NCBI GenBank assembly: GCA_007694185.1
Contig: RECD01000091.1
Coordinates: 1-51,469, forward strand
Direction: 5' to 3'
From: Planctomycetaceae bacterium
GTDB lineage: Bacteria > Planctomycetota > Planctomycetia > Pirellulales > Pirellulaceae
DNA length: 51,469 nucleotides
Shown here: one piece after another, positions 1 through 4,391 of the stretch
Layout: every line of letters starts with the position of its first letter
Position numbering within the stretch: position 1 is the stretch's first letter
Notes under the pieces: generated by a model
Database searches by the model: none
Told to the model about the DNA's origin: nothing
Seen by the model: the letters and a program-made list of their open reading frames with translations, nothing else
Position numbers and translations under genes: made by a program

Positions 1-40
1 CGTAGGGTTGGACGGCTGCACGTAGGGTTGGACGGCTGCC
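1..40. repeat. 20-bp direct tandem repeat, two copies
   Basis: The window opens with two adjacent copies of a 20-bp unit beginning CGTAGGGTTGGACGGCTGC and differing only in the last base. The array is cut by the window edge, so its true copy number is unknown. It lies just beyond the stop of the minus-strand zinc-ribbon gene, in its 3' flank. No function can be read from it. Confidence 0.7.
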
Positions 41-800: not shown

Positions 801-1784
801 CTAGCGATAGTTCTCGTGGCACTTGTTGCAAGACTGCTGGATAGCGGCGACCGCCCGTCCGACAGCGGTCGGGTCGCCCTGGTCGAGCGCCAAAGAAACG
901 CCGCGACTGGCTTCAATCAGCTCATCGCAGAGTTCCGCGTAATCGGCGTCGTCGGCATCCGTCAGCCCCTCAGTGCGAAGGACTTGGGCGACGATCGCCA
1001 TCACTTCCGCGGACCTGCGCAACGCGTCCTCTTCGGCCTGAACCGTTTCGGCATTACGCGAACCTTCTTTAAGCGGTCCTTCGAGAAGTTGTTCCGCGTA
1101 CTGCATCAGCGGGACGCGGTCGGCGATCATCGACCAATCGTTTTCCGCTTCCGCTTGACGACTCGCCAGCCCACTTCCGGACACCAGGTCCTCCAGGTCG
1201 GCACGCCGCAATTTCGTCTCGTTGAAAACCTGCAAAGATCCGGACTTGCAGTTGGCTGCGGAGCGGGCGAGCAGATCGCGGGCGGCGGCCGCATCCTTTT
1301 TCCAGCGGACCTCCCCTTCGTGTTCGACGATCACCGCGAACAGCGTGGCCAGCGTCGTCAGGTGCAACCTGGCCCGTTGGTAGTCGCCGCCCTTGAACGC
1401 CGCCGGGGTGCTGACCGCCCCATCGAACTCGAGCCGCACGCGCTTGATCTCGTCTTCCAGCGAAGCGGGTGAGATCAGCTTCGTGAACAGGCTGGCCCCT
1501 CCATCACCGACGCTCGGCGCGGACGCCGCGGCTGTAGAGCCAGCCGTGGGACTGCCGGCGACCCTGGACGGGGCCGACGTCGCCTGACCCAAACGGGGGC
1601 GTTCGCCGCGGATCGCTTCGTCGACCGAATCGAAAAAAGTGCCGCGAAACCGGTCTTTAGCGATCGTTGGGGGTTTCGCCCGACGTTCGCTCGCCAGGGC
1701 GGCTAGCGAACCGACCAGCGACACGGTCAGGCAGATCAATCCGAGGACTCGGACGATGCGCCAAGCGGGGATCGGTGAGTGCAT
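801..1784 (-). CDS. Exported cytochrome c'-like protein (C-terminal CxxCH)
   Basis: Protein of 327 residues with a signal peptide (hydrophobic residues about 10-30 ending in an A-x-A-type site near LAALAS). The only obvious cofactor motif is a C-terminal CNKCH followed by E-N-Y-R, preceded by a helical segment. This resembles the C-terminal haem-binding helix of cytochrome c' family proteins, so covalent haem attachment in the periplasm is expected. The middle is helical with low-complexity Ala/Ser/Gly stretches. The start has a GGAG seven bases upstream. The first roughly 125 residues and about 95 bp of upstream DNA closely resemble the next gene upstream (1907-2701), which indicates a partial duplication. 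A redox or sensor role is inference. Confidence 0.75.
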   Translation of the reverse strand: MHSPIPAWRIVRVLGLICLTVSLVGSLAALASERRAKPPTIAKDRFRGTFFDSVDEAIRGERPRLGQATSAPSRVAGSPTAGSTAAASAPSVGDGGASLFTKLISPASLEDEIKRVRLEFDGAVSTPAAFKGGDYQRARLHLTTLATLFAVIVEHEGEVRWKKDAAAARDLLARSAANCKSGSLQVFNETKLRRADLEDLVSGSGLASRQAEAENDWSMIADRVPLMQYAEQLLEGPLKEGSRNAETVQAEEDALRRSAEVMAIVAQVLRTEGLTDADDADYAELCDELIEASRGVSLALDQGDPTAVGRAVAAIQQSCNKCHENYR

Positions 1785-1906
1785 GACAAGGCTCCAGACA
1801 AAGGCAAATCGTGCTTGCCATCATACGTCGAGAGCTCGGGCGGGTACAGCAACGGCAGCCTTGCTCGGAGACCGATCGTGGGGAGGCTCGGTGGCGGACG
1901 CCGATA

Positions 1907-2701
1907 TCAGCTGTCCGCATCGGTCGAGGCGATCGGCTCCAGGCTGGGCGGCGTGTCAGGCTCGACGTCACCGATCGTGTGGAAGTGGTTGTGGTCGACA
2001 TAGATCACTTTGATCACCTCCTTGTCATCCGCGGAGCGATGGATCGTGCACTTGTAGTGTGCGTGATGCAATTGGGCGGGGCCGATCAGCGAGTAGAAGC
2101 GGGGCGGATCGACGTATTCGACGATCTTTTCCTTGACGATGTGAACGTTGTTGCGTTGCTTTTCCCGCACGAAGGGAACGCCGCCCCGCACCGGTTGGGC
2201 CCGTTCCAAGGCTCGCATGATTTCGTCGTCACTCGGCGGATCGATCGCCACGGGGGGACCACCTTCGGTCGTCGGTCCGAGGATCGGCACAGGGGCATAC
2301 AGTTCGTGATGCCAGTGCTTTTCTTCCGGACGATGCTGCGGCGACGGGCTGGCCGGCATCGGGAGGCACTCGGTGCAGAACGACTCGCCGGGCTTGAGCT
2401 CAATACGCTGGATTTCGTCTTCCGACGAACCGGGTGAGATCAGCTTGGTGGAGTGGTTGGCTTCCACGCACGTGACACCCGCTGCGGACGGGGTCGACGT
2501 CGCCTGGCTTATGCAAGGGCAATCGCCTCGGGCCACTCTGTCCGCCGAATCAACCAAAGTGCCGCGAACATGATCATCGGGAAACGCAGGCTTCGCCCGG
2601 CGTTCGTTCGCTAACACGGCCAGCGAGCCGACCAGCGTCGCGGTCAGGCAGACCAGTCCGACGACTCGGATCGAATTCCCAACGGGGATCGATGAGTGCA
2701 T
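1907..2701 (-). CDS. Chimeric exported protein: N-part of the cytochrome c'-like gene joined to the body of the His-rich lipoprotein
   Basis: Protein of 264 residues with two visible origins. Residues 1 to about 105 (start MHSSIP, signal peptide, ERRAKP, RGT, QATS.PS, TKLISP, EDEI) align with the N-terminus of the gene at 801-1784. From the Cys-Leu-Pro motif near residue 113 to the end, it aligns with the lipoprotein at 3801-4391: HRPEEK, VPILGPTT, DPPSDDEIMRALERA, EKQRNNV, LIGPAQLHHAHYKCTI, YVDHNHFH, GDVEP. The Cys that is the lipobox cysteine in the parent is now internal, so the product should be a soluble Sec-exported protein. It has a short internal deletion relative to the parent (around the HRSADDKEV segment) and reads through the parental stop, adding about 10 residues. 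GGAG lies seven bases before the ATG. Function is unknown. Confidence 0.8.
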   Translation of the reverse strand: MHSSIPVGNSIRVVGLVCLTATLVGSLAVLANERRAKPAFPDDHVRGTLVDSADRVARGDCPCISQATSTPSAAGVTCVEANHSTKLISPGSSEDEIQRIELKPGESFCTECLPMPASPSPQHRPEEKHWHHELYAPVPILGPTTEGGPPVAIDPPSDDEIMRALERAQPVRGGVPFVREKQRNNVHIVKEKIVEYVDPPRFYSLIGPAQLHHAHYKCTIHRSADDKEVIKVIYVDHNHFHTIGDVEPDTPPSLEPIASTDADS

Positions 2702-2855
2702 GAGAAAGCTCCAGGCAGAGAGAAATTGTCTCAGCTATCTCTCGTAATGCGTCCGAGCGGGTATTGCAAGGGCAATCGGGGCTGATTGCGGCGCGCGGCA
2801 CGAGACACGCCCGTTGGCCGAGGCGGATTCGAATCGTCTGCCCGAAACCGAAGCT

Positions 2856-3770
2856 TCACGCGTCGTCCGTTGACGATCGCCAGCGGCGGCTGAATCCGCC
2901 GTTGACGGCCAGTGTCTGGCCCGTGATGAACTCGCTCTCGGGGCTGGCCAAGAAGCGGACCGCAGCGGCGACATCCTGGGGGGTTCCCCAGCGGGCCATC
3001 AAGGCTTGGCCGCGGGCGCGGCGATCCCAGTAATCGCTCGTCGCTTCGCCCCAAGCGGTGCGGATCCACCCCGGGGCGACCGTGTTCACCCGGATTTGGG
3101 GAGCCACGCTTTGGGCGAGCGATTTCGCGAAGGCTTCCACGGCAGCTTTGACCGGGCCGAACATCTGGCCGGCATCTCCCTCCATCCCTTCGGTCGCCTG
3201 ATCCCAACCGATCAGGATCAGGCTCGGCGGCGAACCGATCGGCGGGTTTTGTTGCCAGCGACGGATCAATTCCCGCGAGACGGCGATCGTCCCGACGAGA
3301 TCGACGTCGATCAGTCGTTGTAATTTTTGATCGAAATCGAGGTCGGCGGCTGCGCCGGTCAGCACATCGGCGCCGGCGACGTGAACCCAGACGTCCGGGG
3401 TGCCGACAGCCGTGAAGGCGTCTTCGACCAGTCCGCGACAACCGGCGGAAGAACCGCAGTCGGCCTGTAGAGAGATCGGTCGGCAGCCCCGCTGGAGGAC
3501 CAAGTGTGCGGTCTGTTCGGCGGCCGCGACGTTGACGGCGTGTTGCAACACCAGCGAGTGCATCCCGGCCGCCGCCAGCGTGACGGCGACTTGGCGGCCG
3601 ATTCCACCGGAAGCTCCGGTGACCACGCCCGACAGGCCGGCTAGCGACGTGTCGACATGAGCGTGGGAATCGTGCCGAAAATCACGTTGAGGATCGTTGG
3701 CGGCCATCGGTGACGAATCGGTGGGGCGATAGGGAATATCGCGACCGGATTCGTAGGCGGCCGCCGACAT
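2856..3770 (-). CDS. Short-chain dehydrogenase/reductase fold protein lacking the catalytic Ser and Tyr
   Basis: SDR of the FabG-like classical type. The cofactor-binding TGASGGIG is at residues 51-58, an N-A-G-like position reads V-A-G-A-D, and the C-terminus has the usual VNTVAPGWI, a GTP-like segment and ITGQTLAVNGG. The YxxxK active site reads FGPVK (Phe204, Lys208), and no Ser sits about 13 residues upstream, where the sequence is I-G-W-D-Q. Two members of the catalytic tetrad are therefore replaced, so normal oxidoreductase activity is doubtful. A cofactor-binding or altered role is possible. The first 20-30 residues overlap the duplicated flank of the preceding gene, and translation may instead start at the internal Met22 (MAAND). 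It lies 30 bp after the lipoprotein gene. Confidence 0.8.
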   Translation of the reverse strand: MSAAAYESGRDIPYRPTDSSPMAANDPQRDFRHDSHAHVDTSLAGLSGVVTGASGGIGRQVAVTLAAAGMHSLVLQHAVNVAAAEQTAHLVLQRGCRPISLQADCGSSAGCRGLVEDAFTAVGTPDVWVHVAGADVLTGAAADLDFDQKLQRLIDVDLVGTIAVSRELIRRWQQNPPIGSPPSLILIGWDQATEGMEGDAGQMFGPVKAAVEAFAKSLAQSVAPQIRVNTVAPGWIRTAWGEATSDYWDRRARGQALMARWGTPQDVAAAVRFLASPESEFITGQTLAVNGGFSRRWRSSTDDA

Positions 3771-3800
3771 CAGCGGTCCGCCTTGGCCGGGGGCGATCGG

Positions 3801-4391
3801 TTACAGGTTGGGCGTCGTGTAAGGCTCGACGTCACCGACCATGTGGAAGTGGTTGTGGTCGACGTAGATCACTTCGATCACCTCCATGTCATCCAGCGAG
3901 TGCGGGATGGGGTAACCGACGATCGTCCGTTCGCTGCAATAGATCGTGCACTTGTAGTGTGCGTGATGCAATTGGGCGGGGCCGATCAGCGGGTAGAAGC
4001 GGGGCGGATCGATGTAGTCGGCGATCTTTTCCTTCAGGATGCGAACGTTGTTACGCTGCTTCTCCCACAGGAAGGGAACGCCGCCCTGCACCGGTCGGGC
4101 CCGCTCCAGGGCTCGCATGATCTCGTCGTCGCTCGGCGGATCGAGCGCCACGGCGGGGCCGCCGGCGGTCGTCGGTCCGAGGATCGGCACGCGGTCGTAC
4201 CGCTCGTGGTTCCAAAACTTTTCTTCCGGTCGGTGCTGCTGTAGCGGGCTGACCGGAATCGGGAGGCAACCGGTGCTGACAACCATCGTCATGGCGAGCA
4301 AACCGAGTGCGGTCGGCTGGGCCCACAGGGCCCCGGAGGTCAAACGTGACATGACATTCATCTCTTGACGGTTCAACAGTTTACCGGTCAT
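3801..4391 (-). CDS. His-rich lipoprotein of unknown function
   Basis: Protein of 196 residues. A hydrophobic segment (about residues 25-42) ends in the lipobox V-S-T-G-C, so a lipid-anchored exported protein is expected. The mature part carries a conserved block also present in the chimeric gene at 1907-2701, ending in two His-rich stretches, LHHAHYKCTI and VDHNHFH, that could bind metal. No known family is recognised. The start at 4391 is supported by GAGGGTGA eight bases upstream. Met11 and Met14 are alternatives with poorer ribosome sites. The stop codon TAA corresponds to a Glu codon (GAG) in the chimeric paralogue. Confidence 0.75.
   Translation of the reverse strand: MTGKLLNRQEMNVMSRLTSGALWAQPTALGLLAMTMVVSTGCLPIPVSPLQQHRPEEKFWNHERYDRVPILGPTTAGGPAVALDPPSDDEIMRALERARPVQGGVPFLWEKQRNNVRILKEKIADYIDPPRFYPLIGPAQLHHAHYKCTIYCSERTIVGYPIPHSLDDMEVIEVIYVDHNHFHMVGDVEPYTTPNL

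Follow-up and report, generated by a model that had tools for sequence, protein, structure and literature searches.

The open reading frame F of an uncultured planctomycete is a mosaic of two neighbouring genes, A and B. Our preferred reading, to which we give a probability of about 0.8, is that a tandem duplication gave rise to F as a chimeric gene, that the second copy of an intervening SDR gene was then deleted, and that the product is predicted to be Sec-exported and released; the origin of F as such is well supported. The DNA analysed, hereafter the window, is positions 1-51,469 of contig RECD01000091.1 of assembly GCA_007694185.1 (Planctomycetaceae bacterium, Pirellulaceae). Its minus strand carries, in this order, genes for a BON protein (6045-4780), B, the SDR, F, A and a GYF-domain protein (749-72). 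Thus, F sits between its intact parents, in the order set by a head-to-tail joint (Table 1). The contig opens with head-to-tail copies of a 20-base unit (window 1-40), perhaps an assembly edge; the 19-base core of this unit has no further exact copy in the genome.

Table 1. Features of the chimeric gene F, its parents and the gene between them
Feature	Position in the window	Strand
F, chimeric ORF, 264 aa	1907..2701	-
F 5' part from A (aa 1-107): signal peptide, linker, start of A's conserved helical region	2381..2701	-
F junction (aa 108-110), TTC TGC ACC; GTC AGC ACC in both parents	2372..2380	-
F body from B, aa 111 onward	1940..2371	-
F C-terminal extension (10 residues + stop) into the former B-SDR spacer, past B's lost stop	1907..1939	-
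Putative remnant of the second SDR copy's first codons: ATATCGGCGTCCGCC here, ATGTCGGCGGCCGCC in the SDR gene	1893..1907	-
F 5' flank, resembling the A 5' flank at 1785-1857	2702..2774	-
Parent A, cytochrome c'-like	801..1784	-
Shared word GTCAGCACC in A, VST, aa 124-126	1407..1415	-
Parent B, conserved His-rich probable lipoprotein, 196 aa	3801..4391	-
Shared word GTCAGCACC in B, VST, aa 38-40; Gly-Cys of lipobox-like site directly after	4272..4280	-
SDR-type dehydrogenase gene between B and F, in the inferred duplicated unit	2856..3770	-

Pairwise DNA alignment and a repeat finder both resolve F into two collinear matches. The match to A begins 73 nt before the start codon and ends at the junction (F 2774..2486 with A 1857..1566, and F 2461..2372 with A 1496..1407), the longer blocks being 66-84% identical by pairwise alignment and 71-83% by the repeat finder. 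An earlier note on this DNA had traced the 5' flank, the signal peptide and the first ~105 residues to A; all of this stands except the length, which the DNA alignment puts at 107 residues plus three at the junction. It had also derived the rest of F from the His-rich B, and the second match bears this out: F 2379..1893 aligns with B 4279..3756 (86% identity over 337 nt and 90% over 101 nt), starting just ahead of B's lipobox Cys and running over the first 15 nt of the SDR gene. The switch is sharp. Between the 12-nt segments F 2384-2373 and F 2368-2357, matches to A fall from 9 to 2 of 12, whereas those to B rise from 7 to 11 of 12.

Similarity reaches beyond the coding parts on both sides, a point on which the earlier note had made its reading depend. 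The 5' flanks of F and A alone match at 50 of 72 aligned bases, a score reached in 14 of 2000 shuffles and thus modest on its own, and the spacer between B's stop and the SDR matches the sequence after F at 24 of 29 positions (0 of 2000 shuffles); the shuffles for the flank, the spacer and the 1850-1893 score below preserve base composition only. In G003, the nearest relative tested, the SDR-A spacer has diverged too far to inform the 5' flank comparison. A promoter and terminator scan of 1700-2950 found no sigma-70-like promoter site at F and one terminator-like site (1819-1803; 0.9 expected). Searched against its own genome up to E 10, F recovers only itself, B (76%) and A (57%). Likewise, a comparison of the window's 243 stop-to-stop frames of at least 100 aa yields, at E 1e-8, just the pairs F-A and F-B and one antisense pair. 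Long plus-strand frames over F (1787-2437) and B (3714-4244) are 74% identical to each other, and are most likely a shadow of GC-rich coding.

The net length differences between F and its parents are 3, 45 and 36 nt, each a multiple of three; the DNA alignment also places four 1-nt gaps, which cancel out, in the signal-peptide codons. A has a cytochrome c' Pfam match at aa 278-327 with the motif CNKCH, in a region that F did not inherit. Accordingly, F lacks the C-terminal heme domain of cytochrome c' (PF01322) with CxxCH, and has no Pfam match up to E 1. Four cysteines were gained in the linker of F (window 2375-2521), at residues 61, 63, 78 and, at the junction, 109; four among 50 replacements is not significant (P 0.09).

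With A and B set in register, nine bases are identical at the switch, GTC AGC ACC, which reads VST in both frames (GTCAGCACC). The alignment of the three loci that the earlier note had proposed therefore maps the junction to a 9-bp shared word. Such runs of at least nine are rare, occurring at 134 of the 459,534 breakpoint pairs between A and B (0.03%), or 37 of 51,152 in frame. In G003, VST is present in both A and B, each with one base different. The junction lies directly before B's Gly-Cys, and hence F inherited the Cys internally, as residue 112, after Glu.

Beyond F lie, in order, the B-SDR spacer, a degenerate SDR start, ~35 nt without clear match to either parent and the 5' flank of A. 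F itself ends in a TGA that overlaps the old SDR start, B's stop having been lost. A second SDR copy is absent between F and A, where only ~15 nt are recognisable, and 1858-1892 has no convincing match to either parent (1850-1893 scores 20; shuffles reach 27). Since tandem duplication on its own should have left another SDR gene here, a later deletion of ~1 kb must be added, as judged from the missing copy and from the stretch that resembles neither parent. For the same reason, we claim that F arose by tandem duplication, not that the locus still is one. The earlier note had proposed a plain tandem duplication with breakpoints inside A and B; the breakpoints and the position of F between its parents hold, but the lost SDR had gone unseen. 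Overall, that note was right on the mosaic and largely right on the origin; the 9-bp joint, the missing SDR copy, the deletion inside the body and the relaxation of selection had escaped it.

The gene order, the 9-bp in-frame word and the remnant of the SDR start agree with a tandem duplication whose ends fell within A and B, and we infer the following order of events. From an ancestral order B-SDR-A, the segment running from the VST codons of B through the SDR to the VST codons of A (unit B3'-SDR-A5') would have undergone head-to-tail duplication through illegitimate recombination at the shared word. At the novel joint, the body of B would have come to follow, in frame, the ribosome site, signal peptide and linker of A, with intact B and A left on either side. 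The redundant second SDR would later have been deleted, except for the ~15 nt of its start that remain after F. F would then have lost 12 body residues, gained 10 residues through the lost B stop, and had the Gly before B's lipid-attachment Cys replaced, its product presumably leaving the cytoplasm via Sec and being released after cleavage by signal peptidase I rather than lipid-anchored as expected for B. A fusion born by deletion was considered and rejected, as A and B are full length on the same contig and the SDR stands between B and F.

The predicted change of location rests on signals read from the protein sequence. F retains A's hydrophobic N-terminal segment, which by eye has an A-x-A-like end (VLA-NE); A-x-A is the signal peptidase cleavage pattern, and thus F is likely to be exported by Sec and cleaved. 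A Gly-Cys lipobox near the N-terminus is not found in F, which reads FCTEC at aa 108-112. With A's signal peptide in place and this Gly replaced, F is predicted to be released. In B, the Gly-Cys is nearly invariant. Its -3 residue, however, is mostly Ser/Thr, not the L/V/I usual in the lipobox consensus, so that lipidation of B is likely rather than certain. The move would then probably be from a lipid anchor in B to soluble export in F.

Among the genomes searched, the fusion is seen in one. In three of the four genus mates (G001, G003 and G004), the order is BON-B-SDR-A-GYF, without F. In the fourth (G002), BON-B-SDR is followed by other large genes (L089 6341-12354), and A-GYF lies on a separate short contig (L090); thus, the SDR-A boundary is broken there too. 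The search covered 98 genomes, its own included; F was found in none of the 97 relatives, and no match listed for them spans both halves. This led us to reject two widespread domains joined in many taxa, the outcome that the earlier note had set against its reading and for which it had proposed a search of sister genomes. The B-derived body alone is matched in 94 of the 97 relatives (the exceptions being G038, G094 and G096), and the N-half in 18 of 241 family genomes, own included. Nine of the 17 non-own N-half matches were read, and all are full-length A genes aligned to A's last residue; the other eight, judged from the listing, are open frames of 312-373 aa, except one of 99 aa (G018).

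The age of F can be expressed relative to the split from G003, using 142 codons for the body and 95 for the A half, where the linker alignment is uncertain. For the body, dS is 0.237 between F and B (bootstrap 0.136-0.373) and 0.677 between B and its G003 counterpart, a ratio of 0.35. For the N-half, dS between F and A is 0.504, against 1.560, a value near saturation, between A and its G003 counterpart, a ratio of 0.32 (0.43-0.47 and about 0.3 by other alignments); dS of A for G001 and G004 was not computable. Both ratios indicate a single event that postdates the split from G003, F being about one third as old as the distance to this nearest relative tested. Consistently, the best of eight codon trees pairs F with the B of the window itself as its sister (lnL -1508.31), though a deeper placement, with a zero-length branch, is only 1.25 lnL units worse. 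Sixteen consecutive codons are identical between the bodies of F and B, from which we make no claim of gene conversion by B.

Purifying selection on the body of F is strongly relaxed, yet not absent. When dN/dS was computed, as the earlier note had advised for both halves, a two-ratio codon model gave an omega of 1.46 on the F branch against 0.047 elsewhere and improved on a single ratio by 26.6 lnL units. Under a clock, the body is fitted best by an omega of 0.84, so that the estimates span about 0.8-1.5 against 0.05. An omega of 1 fits as well (lnL -1508.50, 0.2 units below the best), and since 0.3 is 5.1 units worse whereas 5.0 is only 0.9 worse, values above 1 remain compatible with the data. 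With one age imposed on both halves, omega is 0.67 for the body and 2.15 for the A half on a coarse grid. The replacements in F nevertheless avoid conserved positions: at sites conserved at >=90% (72 of 138), nine of 30 are seen against 15.7 expected (P 0.005), and at 40 invariant sites four against 8.8 (P 0.02), four of the 142 aligned residue pairs having been dropped (<20 sequences in the column). For the yardstick pair, B and B of G003, none of 16 replacements falls in conserved sites.

These figures bear on whether F has a function. That it has none, and that its open frame is drifting toward loss, would be compatible with the origin proposed here, and we put the odds somewhat below even. 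The omega of the F branch, with neutrality fitting equally well, speaks for such drift, as do the heavily changed part derived from A's conserved helix and the loss of seven of the 43 residues that all 40 B sequences share (three by deletion, four by replacement). On the other hand, the frame is intact, as the earlier note had remarked: the chance of no stop in 264 codons is about 4-19% for 120-60 random changes. The in-frame length differences and the scarcity of replacements at conserved sites also argue against drift, and, with one age assumed for both halves, making both fully neutral costs 12.2 lnL units relative to freely estimated omegas.

Other routes to the same mosaic deserve weighing. 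A could have been duplicated and the 3' half of one copy then overwritten by B through ectopic recombination. The absolute dS would suit such a history, being larger in the A half (0.43-0.50, 0.47 in one estimate) than in the body (0.24), and separate ages for the two halves improve on a single shared age by 1.72 lnL units (about P 0.06). Yet the ages scaled by locus agree, albeit with dS at the A locus near saturation, the 3' match extends into the SDR start, an extension that copying B by itself would not require, and two separate recombinations are required; we regard this history as improbable. Assembly error comes to mind because the source assembly comprises 288 contigs, with this locus near the start of one. 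However, present-day A and B joined by misassembly would give near-identical halves, whereas the body of F differs from B by 13%, the other half is further from A, and the indels are in frame, which makes an artefact highly implausible. Least credible of all is that F is an ancestral composite of which A and B are the split products: nothing was found in its favour, and the B-type body in nearly all relatives, the nine full-length A-type genes elsewhere and the presence of F in a single genome contradict it. Tandem duplication followed by loss of the second SDR is thus the reading that we retain.

The body that F took from B belongs to a wide family. Over 40 B sequences, 43 columns are invariant, including HHA-YKC and DHNH-H, yet B has no Pfam or NCBIfam match despite its wide distribution in Pirellulales. 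With F included, 44 columns are invariant over 18 sequences; the HHAHYKC and DHNHxH body is conserved, and F keeps the invariant His and Cys, its own motifs reading HHAHYKC and DHNHFH. These residues suggest that the body may bind a metal or a redox partner. Missing from F, with the 12 residues CSERTIVGYPIP of B, is the VGxPxPH (VGYPxPH) segment, whose G, P and P are invariant in 40 B sequences. Eight further matches to the B domain occur in seven of the 97 relatives, and five of them (both G072 copies, G065, G093 and G031) are likewise shortened where F has its deletion, so this deletion need not destroy the fold; the G028 copy keeps the segment, and those of G084 and G055, ambiguous at this position, are not counted among the five. 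In G072, two B-like domains lie in one M56 (BlaR1-type) protein, and in G028 one lies in an M56-secretin protein. These two M56 (BlaR1-type) proteins are 1240 and 1290 aa long (L095 526-4248 and L096 573-4445). The G065, G031 and G093 copies follow apparent transmembrane or signal segments, as judged by eye. Re-anchoring of the B body thus looks like a recurring theme.

AlphaFold gave a pLDDT of 66.6 for B (40 sequences) and a poor 49 for F (18 sequences), values that are not comparable given the unequal alignment depth; we read nothing into the difference. The B fold has no clear match among PDB structures by Foldseek (best E 0.09), and a further comparison with the PDB reached at best Z 5.3, with mixed ARC6/PARC6, CaMKII hub and NTF2-like chains. 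By sequence, B has no PDB match up to E 10. We would tentatively raise a broader idea, itself rather unlikely: the B body may be an undescribed, order-wide extracytoplasmic domain, repeatedly copied out of the lipoprotein, re-anchored or exported and shortened at one place, of which F would be the youngest, freed form with a new soluble role. Literature searches, mostly at the level of title listings, turned up no naming of the fusion or of the B domain.

The kind of event is already known, and F is an instructive natural, datable bacterial case with intact parents. In Drosophila, tandem duplications with ends inside two genes can reportedly give chimeras, as proposed for F. Work by Farr et al. 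in 2017 on domain fusion and protein relocalization is said, by its title, to concern a changed place in the cell, as predicted for F. The Drosophila chimeras, as presented in the excerpts of PMC4503668, are from animal populations, segregating and young, unlike F. According to the excerpts of PMC11111574, tandem duplication in an engineered E. coli system occurs between borders with 9 bp of microhomology, such microhomology having been unnecessary in the authors' earlier work, and promoter capture through tandem duplication by illegitimate recombination goes back to Anderson and Roth 1978. As in F, the duplication joint there lies between two genes with short or no homology; promoter capture, however, arose under laboratory selection for expression, whereas F is natural, in frame between two exported proteins, and diverged by at least 13%. 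The deletion-born fusions of PMC12803068, in the part of that paper considered, likewise join two gene fragments into a new bacterial ORF, but by a deletion, while both parents of F are intact alongside. Similarly, in the adaptive Pseudomonas fluorescens fusions (Lind, Farr and Rainey 2015, PMC4395868), a body is in frame with another gene's N-terminal part; these arose, as that paper's excerpts describe, by deletion under selection and were checked by reconstruction, F being known here from its sequence alone.

The bacterial fusions in the portions of the cited papers at hand were thus made or caught in selection experiments or born by deletion, and F is a natural duplication-fusion. Its two parents, the shared joint and the scar left by the spacer gene can all be read, its age can be given in relative terms, and the change in selection has been measured. 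Beyond F itself, a widespread Pirellulales domain without a name comes into view, one that recurs in other architectures, among them BlaR1-type M56 peptidases. If F is functional, it illustrates how a single recombination event can relocate a conserved, anchored protein.
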